From the NCBI RefSeq assembly GCF_014648275.1, contig NZ_BMQU01000005.1, positions 186,001-250,000 on the forward strand: a DNA stretch of 64,000 nucleotides. Reading direction: 5' to 3'. Positions 14,103-62,275 of the stretch are shown here, one piece after another. The notes beneath the pieces were generated by a model. It made no database searches, was not told the origin of the DNA, and was given only the letters and a program-made list of their open reading frames with translations. The stretch is from Pseudomonas laurentiana. Lineage in GTDB: Bacteria; Pseudomonadota; Gammaproteobacteria; Pseudomonadales; Pseudomonadaceae. The position numbers and the translations under genes are program-made. Within the stretch, counting starts at the first letter, position 1, and each line of letters starts with the position of its first letter.

Positions 14103-14180
14103 AGAGTCAGCAGGTCCGGTCAAAAGATAGGGGAAGCGGATATTTTGCGGCTTCCTGCGGGGGAAGTCCAACCTGCGGCT

Positions 14181-14276
14181 TGGCGGAAGGCAGCGGGAGT
14201 CGAACCTGCCCGGGAACGGCTGCCGTCCCCAACCGGGTTTGAAGCCCGGCCGCGCCACCGGGCGCGATTGCCTTCC
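14181..14276 (-). tRNA. selC: tRNA-Sec (anticodon UCA)
   Basis: The minus strand folds as a 96-base tRNA with the long acceptor/variable arms typical of selenocysteine tRNA. It begins GGAAGGC, the anticodon loop is CTTCAAA (UCA), the T-arm is GGTTCGACTCC, and the 3' end GCCA is encoded. It closely resembles E. coli selC. It follows the selB stop by 6 bases. Confidence 0.97.
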
Positions 14277-14282
14277 TCGTCA

Positions 14283-16202
14283 TCAGCCGTGACTCAGTTG
14301 GGCCAACGCATTGTCCGGTCGTACGCGACGCTGGTCGCCGAGGCGGCGCGTCAGGCCGACACGGTCGAAATACTCGAGAATCTGGATACTGCGTTTACGG
14401 CCGATCCCTAACACATCACGAAAACGTGCCACCTGGACACTCAGGTCCTCGGCAGCCACTTGCATGAGCATAGCCGCCATTTGTCGCACCGTGGCATCAG
14501 GATAGAACAGGTCGCGTACCACTTGATGTACTTGCCCCAAGCGCGCCATCTTGCGTAACAGCAGCCGCACAGCAGCCTCCTCGCCGTGGGTTGCACGGGC
14601 CAGGTCACGCACCCAGGGCGGGTCAAAGCCGGACGCTTGCAACAGCGGTTGCAACTGCGCCCACAAGGCCATGTCCTCGTCGTTCAGACGTGCCTGATGC
14701 TCCGGCAAGTGCAACCATGGCCCACTACAGGCCAGCCCCCCTTCCGCCAGCAGCTCTTCGATCAAGCTGATGAACACCGGGCGCTCCAGGGGTAGCGCCA
14801 CGAAACGTCGCAAGCGGTCGCGGTCAGGGCCCAACTGGTCAGGCTCCAGCGCGTGAAACCGGGCCAGCTGTGCCAACACCTCCCGTTTGAGCGCCTGCCA
14901 CTGCGACGTCGCGAACAACCGCGAGCCCTGGCGCGTGGCAATAACACTGACATCCTCGGGCAAACGCCAACTGCTGCGCAGACGATTGAACTGACGCTCC
15001 AGTTGATGAGGGTCTAGCCCCGATGCCCCCTGTGCAAGCAGCGCTGGAAGAGCCTGCTCCAGACTCTCGGCCTCGGCCAACGCCTGCAACTGTGCCAATC
15101 GCGCCGGGCTACGACGCTGCCGGGCGGGCGCAAAAGGATCAAGCACCCGCCCACCTCCAAGCGTGCGCTGCGCACGCTGATCGCGCACCACCAGGCGATC
15201 ACCATGCACAGCGTGCAGCGGGGCATTGAGCAGCAACTGCGCAAACATATGCCCACCGGGCGCCAGGCTCTCGCCTTGCAGCAGCGCGACCTTCGCGGTG
15301 ACATCCTGAGTGCCAAGATGCACATGCACGGAACTGAAATGTTCAAACAGACGGGTTTCACTGCCCAGCAACCGCAGCTCGAAATCCAGGCGCTGAGTAG
15401 TACCGTACAACCACTCGGCCAACAGCCAATCACCACGGTGGATCTGCTCCACACTCAGGCGTTCGGCAGCGATATTCAAGGCCACCCGCTGCCCGGCCCG
15501 CGCTTCGACTGCGGCCTGGTTCTGTGCATGCAGGCCACGCACGCGCACCGGTTTACCGGTCTTGCCCAACAGCAACGTGTCGCCGACCTGCACCTGGCCA
15601 GCCAATGACGTACCCGTGACCACAATGCCTGCACCGGCAACGCTGAATGCACGGTCTATGGCCAGACGAAAGCCTCCTGCACTGCTGCGCTGGCGAATGT
15701 CATGCTGGGCGCTCAAAAGTGCCTGGCGCAATACATCGATGCCACTGCCGGACACGCTCGACACCACGAACTGAGCCGCCCCGGCATAAGGCCCCGTTGC
15801 CAGCAAGGCCTGCACCTCACTCTGCACCTCACGCACCCTTGCAGGCTCGACACGGTCACATTTGCTGATAACCACCAGCGCCTTGGGGATACCCAGTAAC
15901 TCGACAATTGCCAAGTGTTCACGGGTCTGCGGCATCACGCCGTCGTCGGCCGCTACCACCAGCAATACCAGGTCAATGCCATGTGCTCCGGCCAGCATGT
16001 TGTGAATAAAGCGCTCATGGCCGGGGACATCGACAAAACCCGTGAGCTCAGCCCCCGCCTGCAGCGGCGCGTAGCGGTAGCCAAGGTCGATAGTGATGCC
16101 CCGTTCGTGCTCTTCCCGACGACGATCTCCAGCCTGCCCGGTCAGTGCTTCCAGCAGTGCTGTCTTGCCATGATCGATATGCCCGGCCGTTCCGACAATC
16201 AC
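14283..16202 (-). CDS. selB: Selenocysteine-specific elongation factor SelB
   Basis: SelB delivers Sec-tRNA to UGA codons marked by a SECIS hairpin. The 639-residue protein has an EF-Tu-like GTPase domain ([11 protein letters not shown] at 4-14, DVPGHERF near 60, SKCD near 113), beta-barrel domains, and a long C-terminal winged-helix region (~370-639) that binds SECIS RNA. The start is the GTG at 16202, whose bases overlap the selA stop (GTGA); the upstream in-frame codons lie in selA. Its presence with selA, selC and fdoG makes a complete decoding set apart from selD. Confidence 0.95.
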
Positions 16203-17629
16203 CTTGTCATGACCCCCAGTCGTAACTGCGGTAGCTGCTCCAGCCAACCGACTTCGTCATCCAACTGACGCAGGTCCAGCCACAGCGCATCGTCATCGAT
16301 GCGCCCAAGTACCGGAATCGGCAAAGCACGCAAGGCTGCCTCCAGCGCATGCAAGTGACGCCCGCGCAAACGCTTGGACGCCCGCGCGCGCGCGCACAAG
16401 GCGGCGCTAGGCAAGCGGGCCACCGGCTGACTGCCGCTGCCAATCATGCCTAACGCGGGTTCCACGCTCACCGCCCACAACTCACCCAGCACGTGCGCAA
16501 GCGCCGGCGCCAGGCGCTGGGCTTGCGCCAGAATATCCGCCTGGGGGCGGGTCAGCAGACGCAGGCTGGGCAGACGTTCAGCCAGCCGCTCGGGATTGCG
16601 GTACAGGCCCAGCACCGCCTCCAGCGCAGCGAGGGTCAACTTATCCACACGCAGGGCGCGCTTGAGCGGGTTTTTCTTGATCCGCGCGATCAGTGCCTTA
16701 CGACCTACGATCAATCCCGCCTGAGGTCCACCCAGCAGTTTGTCACCGCTGAACGTGACAATATCAGCCCCGTCTGCCAAGGCTTGGCGAACCGTGGGTT
16801 CGGCGGGCAGCCCCCAGCGCGTCAAATCCAGAAGGCTTCCGCTGCCCAGGTCTTCCAGCAGTGGCAGCCCGTGCTGATGGGCCAGTTCCGCCAACGCTTG
16901 GGTCGGTACCTGATGGGTGAAGCCCTGAATGCTGTAATTACTGCAATGTACGCGCATCAGCAGGCCGCTGCGCGGGCCGATGGCGGCTTCATAGTCATGC
17001 GCATGCGTGCGGTTGGTCGTGCCCACCTCATGCAGTTTCACGCCCGCACGCGCCATGATGTCGGGGATACGAAAGGCGCCACCGATCTCGATCAGCTCAC
17101 CACGCGAGATGATCCCCTCCTTGCGCGCGCCCAAACTATTGAGTGCCAGCAATACCGCTGCGGCATTGTTGTTCACCACGGTAACGGCTTCGGCACCGGT
17201 CAGCTCAAGGATCAGGTCCTCGATCAAGTCATCCCGGTCGCCGCGCTTGCCGCTCTCAAGGTCAAATTCCAGGTTCAGCGGATAGCGCGCAGCCTGCTGC
17301 ACGGCATTGATGGCTTCTTCAGGCAGCAAGGCCCGACCAAGGTTGGTGTGCAAAACCGTACCGGTCAGGTTGAACACCCGACGCACTCGGCTTTGATGCT
17401 GCACTGCCAAGCGCTCACCAACCCTGCCAGCCAGCACCTCGGGTATCAGTTCAACAGCCTCCAGCTGACCCCGTCGGACAGGTTCTCGCAGATCATCGAG
17501 CACCTGCCGCAAAGCACTGAGTAGCGCCTCGCGCCCATAGCGTTCCGACAACGGCTGACAGGCAGGACTACGTAACAGGCTATCGACGGAGGGAAGGCGC
17601 GTGGGCAGCGGGGCTAAACTGGAAGGCAT
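16199..17629 (-). CDS. selA: L-seryl-tRNA(Sec) selenium transferase
   Basis: SelA is the PLP enzyme that converts seryl-tRNA(Sec) to selenocysteyl-tRNA(Sec) with selenophosphate. At 476 residues it is full length. The PLP Lys is K297 in [21 protein letters not shown] (~94-102) and [12 protein letters not shown] (~152-163) are conserved. It overlaps selB by four bases and lies 92 bases downstream of fdhE. Confidence 0.96.
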
Positions 17630-17721
17630 TTAAGACGCTCCGGTCATCGCTCTCACGACGCGCGGCAGCAGTCGACTCTGCCGACGAAGGGAGCCGGGAA
17701 TCTTGAGTGTAGCCGCTGGGC

Positions 17722-18645
17722 TCAATCGCCTCCTGGCGCCAGCAGCAGGTTCGGCGCCAAGCGCTGATAGCCCTCCTGATCCAGGCGCAGATCCAGGGCC
17801 AGGCTGGCGAGGTCGACACTCAAGGCCTCCGCTTCGGCATCATGCTCCAGATAGACCAGTTTCAAGTAGCGTTTACACCCTACGCAGCACTCGGCGCGCA
17901 ACGGCGCCAGGCCAGCAGGGTAACGGTCATCCTCGAAGCTGTAGTAACGCAGCCCCTTACTTTGTTCGCAGTAGATACATTTCACCCGTACTACATGCCA
18001 CTCACAGGCACACAAGGAGCAAACCAGATAACGCAGCCCATTGAATTTGCCTCGATGGCGAATCACCCCGGCCATCGCCGGCGAACCGCAGGCCGGGCAT
18101 TGTTGGAGCTCATCACCGGGCCTGAGCAGGTCCTCCGGCAAACCCAACAACCAGTGACTCCAGGCCACTTGCAGTGCAGCACCGAGAAAGGGCACCAAAG
18201 CCGCCGGCAGCCCAGCGTACTGCCCGCCGAGCAATGCCAATGCCCACACCTTGCGCTGCTCGCCACTGGCTGCGCGCAACTGTGCCAGCGCCGCATGCAC
18301 AGGGTCCGAAGCGGCCTGATACTGCTGTAACAACGCCTCCAGATACGGCGGCCAATCGGCTTCACGCACCAGGCTGTCCGCCGCTAGCGGGGGCAGACCG
18401 TGCTCAAGGCAAAGGCGAATGCGCTCAGGGTCTAGCGGGGAGGTGCTCGGGGGATGATCCATCAAACCTTGCTGGAACTGACAAAGGCTGGCAGCAAAAC
18501 GCAGATACTCGGCCAGAGGATGCCCTACAGCCAGGTGCTCCAGACGAGCCCTGCGCAAATCAAACAGGTTCGGTGGTGGCAAATGGATGAACGGCGGAGC
18601 GCTCGCTGCCGCTTCGATATGGCCCGGTTCAAGTATCCTGCTCAA
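17722..18645 (-). CDS. fdhE: Formate dehydrogenase accessory protein FdhE
   Basis: FdhE is a cytoplasmic iron-binding accessory protein needed for maturation of respiratory formate dehydrogenases. The C-terminal half carries the CxxC pairs of the family: CPACGSP, CSLCACEW, CIYCEQ and CCVGCKRY. I choose the TTG at 18645 (LSRILEPGHIEAAAS), giving 307 residues, the usual length, with AAGGGG upstream and a start just after the fdoI stop. The longer frame (to 18690) would overlap fdoI and adds 15 non-conserved residues. Confidence 0.85.
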   Translation of the reverse strand: MSRILEPGHIEAAASAPPFIHLPPPNLFDLRRARLEHLAVGHPLAEYLRFAASLCQFQQGLMDHPPSTSPLDPERIRLCLEHGLPPLAADSLVREADWPPYLEALLQQYQAASDPVHAALAQLRAASGEQRKVWALALLGGQYAGLPAALVPFLGAALQVAWSHWLLGLPEDLLRPGDELQQCPACGSPAMAGVIRHRGKFNGLRYLVCSLCACEWHVVRVKCIYCEQSKGLRYYSFEDDRYPAGLAPLRAECCVGCKRYLKLVYLEHDAEAEALSVDLASLALDLRLDQEGYQRLAPNLLLAPGGD

Positions 18646-18649
18646 GCCG

Positions 18650-19303
18650 TCACCCCTTCTTGCCGATGTGGCTATCCGACCGATCTTCACCGGTCACTTC
18701 CCGATACCATAGCCCATGGTGCTTTTTCGCCCAGGCGCGACTCACCCAACCATGCACCATGGCGCCGACCGAGCCCTTGATCCAGATGCCGGCGTAGATA
18801 TGCACGATGATGCTCAGCACCAGCACAAATGCGGCCAATGCGTGCAGCAGCGTCGCCAGACGAATACCGCCAATCCCAAAATACTGGCTGAAGTAGGCGC
18901 GCCAAATCACCACGCCGCTGAGCAGCAACACCAGCATGCAAAGCAGCAGCGTCCAGAAGAGCAGCTTCTGCCCGGCGTTGTACTTACCCACAGGCGGCAC
19001 ACCCTGCTCTTCATTGCGCATCACCCGGTCGACTCGACGAAGCCAAAGCCGATCATTCGCCGTGAGAATGTTCGCTCGCCAGAAACGTATTACCAGCCCC
19101 AGGAACAACACAAACATCAACACACCCATAAAAGGGTGCAGTATCCGCGTCCAGGGCCCGCCACCAAACAGGTGGCTGAGCCAGAACAACGCCGGGTGAA
19201 ACAGCGCCAGCCCGGACAACGCCGCCATGAAGAACAGAATGGCCACCGCCCAGTGGTTACTGCGCTCATTCGCGGTGTAACGCAGGATCGGTTTGTCTTT
19301 CAT
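18650..19303 (-). CDS. fdoI: Formate dehydrogenase gamma subunit, cytochrome b556
   Basis: A 217-residue diheme membrane cytochrome that passes electrons from the beta subunit to quinone. Four hydrophobic helices are visible (~18-38, ~53-72, ~112-133, ~150-172). Conserved histidines include those in [19 protein letters not shown] and the [22 protein letters not shown] segment. Its ATG overlaps the fdoH stop by four bases. The subunit is of the FdnI/FdoI type; which of the two respiratory enzymes it matches best cannot be decided by eye. Confidence 0.93.
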
Positions 19304-20250
19304 GGCCGATCTTCCCCCTGTGCACCAGGATTGCTCGGGTCAAAGACATGCACGGCCGGGTCAACCTCACGCACGCTGGGGTCCTTGCCAGCCGGATGCT
19401 CATCGTCCTCGATCCGCTGCGGACCAATACGCACATAGTGGAAGAACCCCGCCAACACCGCCGCGCCCATGGCCAGCAACGCCAACGGCTTGCTCATGCC
19501 TTTCCACAAGCCGACCAAGGGGCTGATCACCGGTTGATTCGGCAGGCCCGCATACAACTGAGGCTGATCGGCATGGTGCAGTACGTACATCACATGAGTA
19601 CCACCGACTCCGTCGGGGTCATACAAGCCAGCCTGCTCGAAGCCGCGCGACTTGAGATCGACGATTCGTTCGGCGGCATGCTCCTTCATGTCCGCCTTGC
19701 TACCAAAGACAATCGCACCGGTTGGGCAGGTTTTGACGCAAGCCGGCTCCAGCCCGACCGCGACCCGGTCCGAACACAGCGTGCACTTGTAGGCCTTGTG
19801 GTCCTTCTGTGAGATCCGGGGGATGTTGAACGGGCAGCCCGTGATGCAATAACCACAGCCGATACAATGATCCTGGTTGAAATCGACGATGCCATTGGCG
19901 TGCTGGATGATCGCCCCTGGGCTTGGGCAGGCTTTCAGGCAACCCGGATCGGCGCAGTGCATGCAGCCGTCCTTGCGAATCAACCACTCCAGATTGCCTA
20001 CGGTGTTTTCATGCTCCGTGAAGCGCATCAGGGTCCAGGTTTCGGCGCTCAAGTCCTGAGGGTTGTCGTAAGTACCGAGGCTATGCCCAACCTCGTCACG
20101 CAACTCGTTCCACTCCGAACATGCCACTTGGCAGGCCTTGCAGCCAATGCACTTGGAGGTGTCGATCAGCTTCGCCACCTCCTCTTGCTGGCGCACCGAA
20201 GGCGGCAAGGTGGTCGTGGCTGAACGGGCAATAATGTCTTGGCTGGCCAT
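19300..20250 (-). CDS. fdoH: Formate dehydrogenase beta subunit, Fe-S protein
   Basis: The 316-residue electron-transfer subunit carries four [4Fe-4S] clusters. The Cys motifs are [37 protein letters not shown] and CTLCSD...CVKTC. A single membrane anchor lies near residues 255-275 ([16 protein letters not shown]). It shares one base with the fdoG stop and overlaps fdoI by four bases, so the three structural genes are tightly coupled. Confidence 0.95.
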
Positions 20251-23200
20251 CAGATTTTCTCCAGGTTGACCAGGAACGACTTGGATTCCGGGGTCTGGGT
20301 ATTACCGTCACCGAGGTACGGCACCAAGGTATTGGTCAGGTAGCCGTGACGGGTGGCGCCGGTGAAGCCCCAGTGCAGGGGGATGCCGATTTGATGCACG
20401 GTCTGGTTGTTGACCTGCAACGGACGGATCCGCTTGGTCACCACCGCGACCGCCTCGATATGCCCTCGCTTGCACGTCACCCGAACCCGATCTCCTGCAA
20501 CAATGCCCTTCTCCTTGGCCAGCGCCTCGCCAATTTCAACGAACTGCTCTGGCTGGGTCACAGCGTTGATCGGGCAATGCTTGGTCCAGAAGTGGAAGTG
20601 CTCGGTCAATCGGTAGCTGGTGGCGGCATACGGGAAGTCCTTGGCCTGCCCCAACGAGTCCCAGACCGAATCGAACACTCGCCCGGCCGGGTTGCTGGTC
20701 GCCTGCTTGTTCCCCGGGTGCAAGGGGTTAATGCCAATGGGCGTCTCGAACGGCTCGTAGTGCTCGGGGAATGGGCCTTCGGCCATCTTGTCCAGCGCAA
20801 AGAAGCGCGCCACCCCTTCGGGGTTCATGATGAACGGGTTCATCGCCGCCTCTGGTGCGACGTCGACTTTGTAGTCGGGAACGTCAGTACCGCCCCAGGT
20901 TTTGCCATTCCACCAGACCAGACGCTTGTTCGGCGCCCACGGTTTGCCTTGAAGATCAGCCGACGCCCGGTTGTAGAGAATCCTCCGGTTCATCGGCCAG
21001 GCCCAGGCCCACCCCAGGTGCTGCTTCATGCCATAAGGATCGCTGTTGTCACGCCGCGCCATTTGGTTGCCTTGCTCGGTCCAACTACCACAGAAGATCC
21101 AGCAACCCGAGGCGGTACTGCCGTCATCCCTTAGCTGGGCGAACCCGGACAGTTGCTGCCCTGTCTTGAATGCCGCGCCACTGACATCGGTAAAGTCGGC
21201 AGTGGCATAGCCGTTGAACTCCTTGGCGATTTCTTCCGGCGATGGCTCATGCGCCACCTTGTAGGGCCAGTTGAGCTTGAGTATCGGCTCGGCCCACGCG
21301 CCACCCTCACGCTGATAGCGCTCGCGTAAACGCAGGAACAGCTCGCTCATGATCTGCACGTCGGTGCGTGCCTGGCCTGGGCCTTCGGCCCCCTTCCAGT
21401 GCCATTGCAGCCAGCGGCTGCTATTCACCAGCGAACCGTCCTCCTCGGCGAAACAGGTGGTTGGCAGACGGATGACTTCCGTCTGGATAGTGGCGGTTTC
21501 AACGTCGTTGTACGGCCCGACATTGCGCCAGAACTCAGACGTCTCGGTGGCCAGTGGATCCATCACCACCAGCCATTTGAGCTTGGCCAGCGACGCCATG
21601 ACACGGTTCTTGTCAGGCAGCGCAGCAATCGGGTTGAAGCCCTGGCAGAAGTAACCATTGACCTGCCCTTTGGCCATCATGTCGAACATCTTCAGCACGT
21701 CGTAGCCAGGAATATCCAGCTTGGGCAACCAGTCATAGCCCCAATGGTTTTCCGCCGTTGCGTTGGCCCCATACCAAGCCTTCATCAGACTGACGTGGAA
21801 CTTGCCGTAGTTCTGCCAATAGGACATCTGCCCTGGGCGTAACGGCTTGAGCGCGCGCTTGGCGATATAGGCGTCGTAGTCCTGCTCGGCATCGGACGCC
21901 AGGGTCAGGTAACCGGGCAACAGATTGGACAGCAGACCCAGGTCCGTCAGCCCCTGGATGTTGGAATGCCCGCGCAAGGCGTTGACACCACCGCCAGGCA
22001 TGCCGACGTTACCCAACAGCAACTGCACCATGGCCGCACTGCGAATGATCTGCGAGCCAATCGAGTGCTGTGTCCAGCCCAAGGCATAGAGGATCGTCAT
22101 GGTCTTGCCTGGCTGCGAGCAGGTGGCGATCTCTTCCCAGATCTTGCGCATGCTGTCTTCCGGCATGCCGCAAATCTGGCTAGCCAAGGCTGGGGTGTAA
22201 CGGCTGTAGTGCTGCTTCATCAATTGGTAGACGCAACGTGGGTCCTGCAGCGTTGGGTCGACCTTGGCAAAGCCATCCTCACCGATCTCATAGCCCCAAC
22301 CGGACTTGTCGGTATAACTGCGCTTGGCGGCGTCATAACCTGAAAACAGGCCGTCCTCAAAACTGAAGCCGGCTTTTACAATGAACGAGACATCGGTGTA
22401 GCTGCGCACATATTCGTGCTGGATCTTGTCCTCGCTCAGCAGGTAGTTGATCAAGCCACCCATGAAGGCGATATCACTACCGGTACGAATCGGAGCGTAG
22501 TAATCCGCTACCGAGGCGGTACGGGTGAACCGTGGATCGACCACGATCAAACGGGCCTGATTGTGCGCCTTGGCTTCGGTCACCCACTTGAAGCCACAGG
22601 GGTGGGCTTCGGCGGCATTACCACCCATCACCAGGACCAGATTCGCGTTGGCGATATCCGTCCAGTGGTTGGTCATGGCTCCACGGCCATACGTCGGGGC
22701 AAGACTTGCCACCGTCGGGCCATGTCAGACACGTGCCTGGTTATCGAACCCCAGCATGCCAAAACTGCGAACGACCTTGTGGGTCATGTAGCCGGCTTCA
22801 TTGGACGAGGCGGACGCGGCAAGGAAACCCACCGTCAGCCAGCGGTTGACCGTCTGCCCCTGCGCATTCTTCTGCACAAAGTTGGCATCGCGGTCCGCCT
22901 TCATCAGGTCGGTAATGCGATCCAGTGCATCATCCCAGGACACTCGCGTCCACTCACTGCTACCTGGCTTGCGTACCTGCGGGTACTGCAGCCGGCTGGG
23001 GCTGTGGATAAAATCGAGCAAGCCCGCACCTTTCGGGCACAACGTGCCGCGATTGACCGGGTGATCGGCGTCGCCTTCGATATGGATGATGTTCTGCGCG
23101 ACATTCTTGGCCGCATCACCTTGGCTGTACATGATCAGGCCACAGCCGACAGAACAGTAAGGGCAGGTGTTGCGGGTCTCGTGGGCGTGGGCCAGCTTGA

Positions 23201-23315
23201 AGTGGCGCACCTGCTCGGCGAAGGCCGGGGCCGGAGCCATTCCCAGCGCAGCCAGGCTCGAGCCTCCAAGGCCGATAGCGGCGACCTTGAAGAACTGACG
23301 ACGGTTGAGGTCCAT
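20250..23315 (-). CDS. fdoG: Formate dehydrogenase alpha subunit, selenocysteine- and molybdopterin-containing (UGA read as Sec)
   Basis: The catalytic subunit of the periplasm-facing respiratory formate dehydrogenase. The N-terminus [15 protein letters not shown] is a twin-arginine signal, followed by a [4Fe-4S] motif (CPYCSVGCG). An in-frame TGA at 22725-22727 corresponds to residue 197, within [19 protein letters not shown], exactly where FdnG/FdoG carry selenocysteine. The frame continues on both sides for a full 1021 residues. The C-terminal part contains the molybdopterin-binding segments ([16 protein letters not shown]). The gene is therefore intact, not two fragments; selA, selB and selC downstream provide decoding. 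Confidence 0.95.
22687..22727 (-). promoter_or_regulatory. SECIS-like hairpin at the fdoG Sec codon
   Basis: Immediately after the UGA the mRNA can form GGUGGCA-AGUCU-UGCCCC: a short stem with an unpaired U near the loop and GU in the loop, as in the E. coli fdnG/fdhF SECIS. The spacing from the UGA is also similar. It should bind the C-terminal domain of SelB. Confidence 0.75.
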
Positions 23316-23338
23316 CGTGCACTCCTGATCAGGTTTGG

Positions 23339-23368
23339 GATGCCTGGAGCAGGTCCAGGCATCTTTTT
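23339..23368 (+). terminator. Terminator-like hairpin oriented against fdoG
   Basis: GATGCCTGGA / TCCAGGCATC, 10 bp with loop GCAGG, is followed by TTTTT on the plus strand, that is antisense to fdoG. It lies 24 bases upstream of the fdoG start, so it is also a leader hairpin of the fdoG mRNA. Confidence 0.6.
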
Positions 23369-23564
23369 AACGATCACGGTGGCGGCGTTATGGCTGTCGC
23401 CAGTTGATACTTTAGTCAAGATCGTACCGAACGGAGCGAAACCGGATCGTCGGTGCTAGGCGCTATGCGGGTGAACGCCTGAATGCACATGTCTCCACTT
23501 TCTAGTGAAAAACTGCCCCCCCGTTTCCTTCGTATGAAGCGCGTGGCTTGCCTCCACACACAAA

Positions 23565-23598
23565 AAAACCCTGACCGCCTCATGGAGATCAGGGTTTT
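23565..23598 (-). terminator. Intrinsic terminator of ssb
   Basis: AAAACCCTGA / TCAGGGTTTT, with a 14-base loop and extra T residues in the direction of ssb transcription. Confidence 0.85.
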
Positions 23599-23679
23599 CT
23601 ATTCTAGAACTGACTGCTTGGCCTATAAGGCGTCAGACCATGACGCACCCTGTAAACCAATACATTCAACGTCTATTCG

Positions 23680-24189
23680 TTAGAACGGAATGTCGTCATC
23701 AAAGCTGTCGAAGTCCGGAGCCGGCTGTGGTGCTGGCTGCTGCGGAGCTGGACGCTGTGGCGCCTGCTGTGGGCGCGGGGCCTGCTGACGCGGGGCCTGG
23801 TTGTAGTTGTTGCCACCACCCTGTGGAGCACCGTCCTGGTTCTGTGGACGACCGCCCAGCAGCTGCATGGTGCCCTGCATGTCGACGATGATCTCGGTGG
23901 TGTAGCGCTTGATGCCGTCTTTTTCCCACTCGCGGGTTTGCAGCTTGCCCTCGATGTAGACCTGGGAACCTTTACGCAGGTATTCGCCAGCGATCTCGGC
24001 AACCTTGCCGAACATCGACACGCGGTGCCACTCGGTGCGCTCGACCTTCTGGCCGGTTTGCTTGTCGGTCCACTGCTCGCTGGTCGCCAGGCTCAGGTTG
24101 GTCACGGCGTTACCGTTGGGCAGGTAGCGGACTTCGGGATCCTGGCCGCAAGTACCGACCAATATGACTTTGTTAACCCCACGGGCCAT
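23680..24189 (-). CDS. ssb: Single-stranded DNA-binding protein
   Basis: SSB coats single-stranded DNA in replication, repair and recombination. The 169-residue protein has an OB fold ([21 protein letters not shown]... to ~110), a Gln/Pro/Ala-rich flexible linker ([15 protein letters not shown]), and the acidic protein-docking tail [11 protein letters not shown]. It starts 9 bases after the MFS gene stop, so it may be cotranscribed with it, and ends at a strong terminator. Confidence 0.97.
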
Positions 24190-44697: not shown

Positions 44698-45891
44698 TTA
44701 CTCGATGATTTTGGCTACGACGCCAGCGCCGACGGTACGACCGCCTTCACGGATAGCGAAACGCAGACCATCTTCCATTGCAATGGTTTTGATCAGAGTG
44801 ACAGTCATCTGGATGTTGTCACCTGGCATTACCATTTCAACGCCTTCTGGCAGCTCGCAGTTACCAGTCACGTCAGTAGTACGGAAGTAGAACTGTGGAC
44901 GGTAGCCTTTGAAGAACGGAGTATGACGGCCGCCTTCTTCCTTGCTCAGAACGTAAACTTCTGCGGTGAACTTGGTGTGCGGCTTAACCGAACCTGGCTT
45001 AACCAGAACCTGACCACGCTCAACGTCGTCACGCTTGGTACCACGCAGCAGAACGCCGCAGTTCTCGCCAGCACGACCTTCGTCCAGCAGCTTGCGGAAC
45101 ATCTCAACACCGGTGCAGGTGGTGGTGGTGGTGTCACGCAGACCAACGATTTCCAGAGCGTCCTGAACGCGGACGATACCACGCTCGATACGACCGGTAA
45201 CAACAGTACCACGACCCGAGATCGAGAATACGTCTTCGATTGGCATCAGGAACGGCTTGTCGATAGCGCGCTCTGGCTCTGGGATGTAGGTATCCAGAGT
45301 TTCGACCAGCTTCTTGACAGCAGTGGTACCCATGCCGTTGTCGTCTTTGCCTTCCAGCGCCATACGAGCCGAACCGATGATGATCGGAGTGTCGTCGCCT
45401 GGGAAGTCATAGGTGGACAGCAGGTCGCGAACTTCCATCTCGACCAGTTCCAGCAGCTCTGCGTCATCTACCAGGTCAGCCTTGTTCAGGAAGACCACGA
45501 TGTACGGAACGCCTACCTGACGGGACAGCAGGATGTGCTCACGGGTTTGTGGCATCGGACCATCGGCGGCCGAGCAAACCAGGATAGCGCCGTCCATCTG
45601 CGCAGCACCGGTGATCATGTTCTTCACGTAGTCAGCGTGACCTGGGCAGTCAACGTGAGCGTAGTGACGAATGTTCGAGTTGTACTCGACGTGCGCGGTG
45701 TTGATGGTGATACCGCGAGCTTTCTCTTCTGGAGCGCTGTCGATCTTGTCGAATTCGACGACGGCCGAACCGAAAACTTCGGAGCAGACGCGAGTCAGAG
45801 CTGCGGTCAGAGTGGTTTTACCGTGGTCAACGTGACCGATGGTGCCAACGTTGACGTGCGGAAGGGAACGATCAAATTTTTCTTTAGCCAC
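44698..45891 (-). CDS. tufA: Elongation factor Tu (copy next to fusA)
   Basis: EF-Tu, a 397-residue GTPase that brings aminoacyl-tRNA to the ribosome. [10 protein letters not shown] at 19-28, DCPGHADY and NKADLVDD are the GTP-binding motifs. It differs from the second copy (61082-62275) by about ten residues, but a 269-base part of the two genes is identical at the DNA level (44846-45114 here). It is 30 bases after fusA and closes the str operon. Confidence 0.98.
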
Positions 45892-48084: not shown

Positions 48085-48555
48085 TTAGAAGCGGTAGTGC
48101 GAGAAAGCCTTGTTGGCTTCAGCCATACGGTGTACGTCTTCACGCTTCTTGACTGCAGCACCTTTACCTTCAGCGGCATCCAGCAGTTCGCCAGCCAGGC
48201 GCAGCGCCATGGACTTCTCGCCGCGCTTGCGGGCGTAGTCTACCAGCCAGCGCATTGCCAGCGCGTTACGACGGGATGGACGAACTTCAACAGGAACCTG
48301 GTAAGTGGCACCGCCAACACGGCGCGACTTTACTTCGACCAGCGGAGCGATGGCGTCGAGAGCTTTCTCGAAGATTTCCAGGGGATCGCTGTTCTTGCGT
48401 GCTTTGACGGTATCCAGAGCACCGTAAACGATGCGCTCGGCTACGGCCTTCTTGCCGCTTTCCATCACGTGGTTCATGAACTTGGCGAGGATCTGGCTTC
48501 CGTATTTCGGATCGTCCAGGATCTCACGCTTGGCTGCTACACGACGTCTTGGCAT
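48085..48555 (-). CDS. rpsG: 30S ribosomal protein S7
   Basis: The 156-residue S7 nucleates assembly of the small-subunit head and in E. coli represses the str operon. It begins [20 protein letters not shown] and ends [10 protein letters not shown]. It is intact, in contrast to the rpsL gene 120 bases upstream. Confidence 0.99.
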
Positions 48556-48675: not shown

Positions 48676-48844
48676 TTACTTCGGACGCTTGGTACCGTAC
48701 TTCGAACGGCCTTGGTTACGACCTTTAACGCCGGAGGTATCCAGGGAACCGCGAACGCTGCGGGCAGTTCTGCAGCGCAGGAACGTCGGATTTCTCGACG
48801 ATACGCTTACGCGGCTGACGTACCAGCTGGTTGATAGTTGCCAT
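48676..48844 (-). pseudogene. rpsL: 30S ribosomal protein S12, internally deleted and frameshifted
   Basis: The ATG at 48844 opens a normal S12 N-terminus ([18 protein letters not shown]... to LQNCPQR, about residue 30). The sequence then runs directly into the DNA for the C-terminal end ([22 protein letters not shown]...), but in another frame. Translation from the ATG therefore ends after 39 codons at 48725. S12 is normally 123 residues; 169 bases remain of the expected 372, so 203 bases (codons ~31-98, with the streptomycin-region lysines) are missing. Promoter, position before rpsG and both ends are normal. The gene is essential, so sequence error is the first suspect. See findings. Confidence 0.93.
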
Positions 48845-49047: not shown

Positions 49048-53247
<4,200 letters not shown>

Positions 53248-61081: not shown

Positions 61082-62275
61082 TTATTCAAGAACCTTTGCA
61101 ACTACGCCCGCACCCACGGTGCGACCGCCTTCACGGATAGCGAAACGCAAGCCATCCTCCATCGCAATGGTCTTGATCAGAGTGACAGTCATCTGGATGT
61201 TGTCACCCGGCATTACCATTTCAACGCCCTCTGGCAGCTCGCAGTTACCAGTCACGTCAGTAGTACGGAAGTAGAACTGTGGACGGTAGCCTTTGAAGAA
61301 CGGAGTATGACGGCCGCCTTCTTCCTTGCTCAGAACGTAAACTTCTGCGGTGAACTTGGTGTGCGGCTTAACCGAACCTGGCTTAACCAGAACCTGACCA
61401 CGCTCAACGTCGTCACGCTTGGTACCACGCAGCAGAACGCCGCAGTTCTCGCCAGCACGACCTTCGTCCAGCAGCTTGCGGAACATCTCAACACCGGTAC
61501 AGGTGGTGGTAGCTGTATCGCGCAAACCAACGATCTCCAGAGCATCCTGAACGCGAACAATGCCACGCTCAATACGACCGGTAACAACAGTACCGCGACC
61601 CGAGATCGAGAATACGTCTTCGATCGGCATCAGGAACGGCTTATCAATAGCGCGCTCCGGCTCTGGAATGTAACTGTCCAGGGTTTCAACCAGCTTCTTG
61701 ACAGCAGTTGTACCCATCTCGTTGTCGTCTTTACCTTCCAACGCCATACGAGCAGAACCGATGATGATCGGAGTGTCATCACCAGGGAAATCATAAGTGC
61801 TGAGCAGGTCGCGAACTTCCATCTCAACCAGCTCCAGCAGCTCAGCGTCATCCACCAGGTCAGCCTTGTTCAGGAAGACCACAATGTAAGGAACGCCTAC
61901 CTGACGGGACAGGAGAATGTGCTCACGGGTTTGAGGCATCGGACCATCAGCGGCCGAGCAAACCAGGATAGCGCCGTCCATCTGAGCAGCACCAGTGATC
62001 ATGTTCTTCACATAATCAGCGTGACCCGGGCAGTCGACATGAGCATAGTGACGAATGTTCGAGTCATACTCGACGTGCGCGGTATTGATAGTAATACCGC
62101 GAGCTTTTTCTTCTGGGGCGCTGTCGATTTTATCAAAATCAACTTTGGCCGAACCGAAAACCTCGGAGCAAACGCGAGTAAGCGCTGCAGTCAACGTAGT
62201 CTTACCATGGTCAACATGACCAATAGTGCCGACGTTTACGTGCGGCTTGTTACGTTCGAACTTTTCCTTAGCCAT
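61082..62275 (-). CDS. tufB: Elongation factor Tu (copy in the tRNA cluster)
   Basis: 397 residues, with the same motifs as the fusA-linked copy. It differs mainly near both ends and at scattered positions (RNKPHVNV vs [18 protein letters not shown] vs [10 protein letters not shown]; end VAKVLE vs VAKIIE). A 269-base stretch (61230-61498) is identical to the other copy. It lies between tRNA-Thr (85-base leader with a hairpin) and tRNA-Trp, as in E. coli tufB. Confidence 0.98.

Follow-up and report, generated by a model that had tools for sequence, protein, structure and literature searches.

Does Pseudomonas laurentiana live with a broken gene for ribosomal protein S12, or does the break exist only in its draft sequence? 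The question is raised by a window of 64,000 nucleotides, the whole stretch of DNA analysed here, which forms part of contig 5 of a draft of 5.21 Mb, divided into 223 contigs, whose completeness is rated at 99.99% and contamination at 0.37%. Features of the locus are collected in Table 1. It is very probable that the loss of 203 bases within rpsL is an error of the draft, absent from the living organism.

Table 1. Features in and around the interrupted rpsL, by position in the window; G032 and G020 are two complete relatives.
Feature	Position	Strand	Observation
rpsL (ribosomal protein S12)	48844-48676	minus	169 bases vs 372; 203 internal bases gone, out of frame
S12 N-terminal remnant, codons 1-30	48755..48844	minus	protein 100% identical to G032 and G020
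S12 C-terminal remnant, ~codons 97-123, other frame	48679..48759	minus	93% identical to G032 and G020
Junction, CGT common to both breakpoints	48755..48757	minus	from alignments with relatives
rpsG (S7, 156 aa), downstream neighbour	48085..48555	minus	open frame, not among the interrupted frames of the 30-kb block
rpoC (1399 aa), upstream neighbour	49048..53247	minus	intact; 97% protein identity to G020, full length
L7/L12	57606-57968		named from position

An earlier, sequence-only reading had described rpsL as 169 of 372 bases, stopping after 39 codons, and both translation and alignment with same-genus loci agree. The frame departs from the S12 sequence past codon 30, continues as SRFPGYLRR and stops at 39 codons, short of the ~123 codons of a full-length S12 frame, and C-terminal S12 coding DNA continues downstream of the stop in a different frame. 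Neither remnant matched the PF00164 profile. Compared with 13/13 same-genus loci (of 30 loci fetched), each with an intact rpsL of 372 bases and 123 codons, the window showed a single internal gap. Alignment with the locus of P. defluvii set this gap, put at about 203 bases in that reading, at exactly 203, with 2 mismatches in the residual 169 bases, and bore out the claim that both breakpoints share the bases CGT. The lost segment comprises codons ~31-98, none of which could be restored by a change of frame, and includes lysines 43 and 88, which presumably lie at the decoding centre and which were kept in all 50 intact named relatives.

The remnants lie in the interval between open frames taken, from position and operon order, to be rpoC and rpsG, and the locus is colinear with those of G032, G020 and P. 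defluvii. In a 30-kb block around rpsL, 37/42 minus-strand frames of G032 and 35/42 of G020 were full-length and uninterrupted in the window. The remaining frames (five and seven, respectively) comprised rpsL, L7/L12, one frame of 147 codons, one of 199 codons and frames of 40-82 codons, the last of which may be non-genes. The 147-codon frame of the relatives, at 93-94% identity, meets one stop in the window, which has its own frame of 143 codons there, and the 199-codon frame, from G020, differs in frame over its first ~18 codons. Only rpsL, among these exceptions, was split at high identity with its middle piece gone. Its remnants showed neither the extra substitutions nor the frame breaks of a decaying pseudogene and, because they are undecayed and their neighbours intact, an old loss of the gene is strongly argued against. 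L7/L12 was 64-67% identical to G032 and G020, unlike most proteins of the block, which exceeded 90%; a second sequence error was considered there and rejected in favour of ordinary variation, protein identity ranging from 65 to 87% across 21 searched relatives of the genus, with no stop inside the frame. Elsewhere in the window, over ~9.5 kb (14121-23682), no DNA alignment scored more than 150 bits against the corresponding regions of the same two complete relatives, and this stretch is probably strain- or species-specific content.

A second rpsL elsewhere, one of the alternatives put forward in the sequence-only reading, was sought in the readable part of the draft (certain short contigs appear as N), and none was found in this searchable genome by profile, DNA or protein. 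The PF00164 profile gave no match there (detected in 13/14 control genomes), and DNA of the middle segment, taken from a relative, gave 21 short matches only in the searchable assembly (best E 0.08). A full-length S12 protein query returned just two fragments with E <0.05, both at the broken locus itself; the next match stood at E 0.058 and 35% identity. A 16S search of the searchable draft, bearing on whether it comes from an isolate or is a MAG, also gave no match; with its control detected in 9/14 only, it carries little weight on that point.

Across the genus, S12 was matched in 393/399 genomes (the source genome itself being counted among the 399), exactly once in each. All but one of these matches (392 of 393) reached E <= 9.4e-39, the 393rd being an interrupted gene in G340. 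The six genomes with no match were the source genome, four that are <90% complete, and G252, which is rated 100% complete and in which the DNA around rpsL is not well matched either. Four genomes had no S12 match in a set of 57 from the genus and order: the source genome, G037 (75% complete), G052 (94%) and G043 (100%), the last also being without a match to L7/L12. For G252 and G043, where absence was called at E 0.001, contigs are probably missing from the assembly; since rpsL goes unmatched in genomes so highly rated, high completeness scores are no guarantee of it. Two lesions within rpsL among 399 genomes are no sign that the gene is specially prone to error.

Named loci, picked by an exact 20-base 3′ flank, numbered 53 (51 titled Pseudomonas and two Pantoea), many of them presumably belonging to the P. 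putida group. An intact 123-codon rpsL was present in 50/53; in two the gene runs past the limit of the fetched DNA, and in one, from P. japonica, it is gapped. P. defluvii was the closest named locus found over both flanks (95.3% and 98.4% in two flank queries), and in longer flank alignments, which contain a single 5-base gap, identity to it was 96.1% and 97.6%. The exact 27-base junction was not found in the contig collection searched, where the window's own record was absent or left out too, and the genus S12 tally stands in for a junction search of the genus genomes. With the junction not found there and the closest named locus intact, a deletion common to the lineage is rejected. A blastn search of the locus against E. 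coli genomes gave no match and has no bearing on the question.

The junction and the contig ends bear on how the two halves came together. The three-base microhomology is weakly unusual, at least three shared bases being present in 5.0% of the 7,697 possible 203-base deletions in the locus. A comparison of 32 contig ends gave 17 pairs, in six groups, with an end in common; the common stretch measures 63-66 bases in 16 pairs and 85 in one, which suggests a k-mer assembler with a word or overlap of 63 bases. A plain repeat collapse would need a repeat of about this length, whereas the breakpoints share three bases, and is therefore unlikely. Of the microhomology or assembly collapse proposed earlier, the shared bases stand and a collapse upon them, set against the at least 63 bases at matching contig ends, does not; the junction is better accounted for by a false join across a gap or by chimerism in a read or molecule. 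A deletion driven by a hairpin was also rejected, as the region of one relative (L024) folds not notably better than its shuffles (z -1.33; 22/200 as good). Long-read assembly, suggested by the locus lying in many relatives on contigs of ~15-17 kb, was dropped because the two tuf copies of the window, at 90.8% identity, would be passable by short reads. These open genes (44698-45891 and 61082-62275), which we take from position and operon order to encode EF-Tu, reach that DNA identity over 1180 bases and differ at 12 residues, the start codon being one. Copies of tuf within one genome are often nearly identical; recent gene conversion between these two is not evident.

The bacterium, then, most likely has a normal rpsL of 372 bases between rpoC and rpsG, the halves of which a k-mer assembly of short reads would have joined without the middle, most probably during gap closing or scaffolding or by way of chimeric reads. 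We infer both the intactness of the real DNA and the step behind the error. The proposal that an assembly or sequence error is likeliest gains support from the genus-wide presence of S12, the intact neighbours, the undecayed remnants, the essential nature of the product in related bacteria and the failure to find another copy among the searchable contigs. Some observations point the other way. A three-base microhomology, expected by chance about 5% of the time, also fits a real deletion; no stray piece with the lost segment turned up in the searchable assembly; and a draft with completeness of 99.99% and contamination of 0.37% does not look like a poor one. No N was present in the 23 readable stretches of the draft checked, nor in the window, and this want of leftover N-filled scaffold gaps counts against gap closing, while neither showing nor excluding it.

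Were the deletion real, the organism would need S12 from some other source or would have to do without. Passages of a study of P. aeruginosa (PMC12977507) describe S12 as essential, and those on an E. coli screen (PMC6242692) place rpsL among the essential genes, in keeping with what the sequence-only reading had claimed; with S12 essential in related bacteria, the best explanation becomes an error in a short-read draft. Life without full S12 has the given sequence alone to commend it and is scarcely credible beside that essentiality, the undecayed remnants and an otherwise intact ribosomal block. A true deletion at this locus, made good by a full-length rpsL on another, unsearchable contig, is somewhat easier to entertain, in that the short contigs reading as N could hold the gene; a second rpsL would nevertheless be exceptional, given one S12 match per matching genome of the genus, and this too is highly improbable. 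Even taken together, as a deletion both real and fixed, with S12 supplied from a contig closed to the search or present in no complete form, they attain only a slight probability.

A mixed sample, the other alternative of the sequence-only reading, is marginally more plausible than this, though still very unlikely: a true deletion would be confined to part of the culture or to one local duplicate, other molecules would hold the intact copy, and the assembler would have kept the broken path. The microhomology at the join is consistent with such an origin, as is the need of a k-mer assembler, judging from the contig ends, for reads that carry the junction or for a paired-end join. Against it, neither a second copy nor the leftover middle was present in the searchable assembly, an assembler would normally prefer the intact path to a minority one, and contamination is estimated at 0.37%. 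Among the matches listed in a weak search of the literature, none had a title concerned with such an rpsL deletion.

The preferred reading, an error in the draft, makes the broken rpsL in all likelihood a problem of data quality and no biological feature. An essential gene silently broken in a genome rated 99.99% complete implies that such scores can miss short internal losses, and rpsL taken from this draft would mislead a phylogeny or a comparison of drug-target genes. If the loss were true, it would be very surprising to find a bacterium living with its main rpsL broken.

Two known loci place the lesion in context. In P. defluvii WCHP16 (L101), at the same locus and with flanks colinear over an 8-kb stretch, rpsL is complete, with 372 bases and 123 codons, whereas that of the window is broken. 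In the draft of P. japonica DSM 22348 (L100) an internal stretch of rpsL is also absent, with a 10-N gap in a locus of 340 bases; G340, whose 340-base rpsL is interrupted by the same 10-N gap and for that reason matches S12 weakly, is apparently the same genome. Drafts can thus break inside rpsL, as the P. japonica gap demonstrates, but where that gap is marked by N, the halves of rpsL in the window are joined silently, with no N between them.
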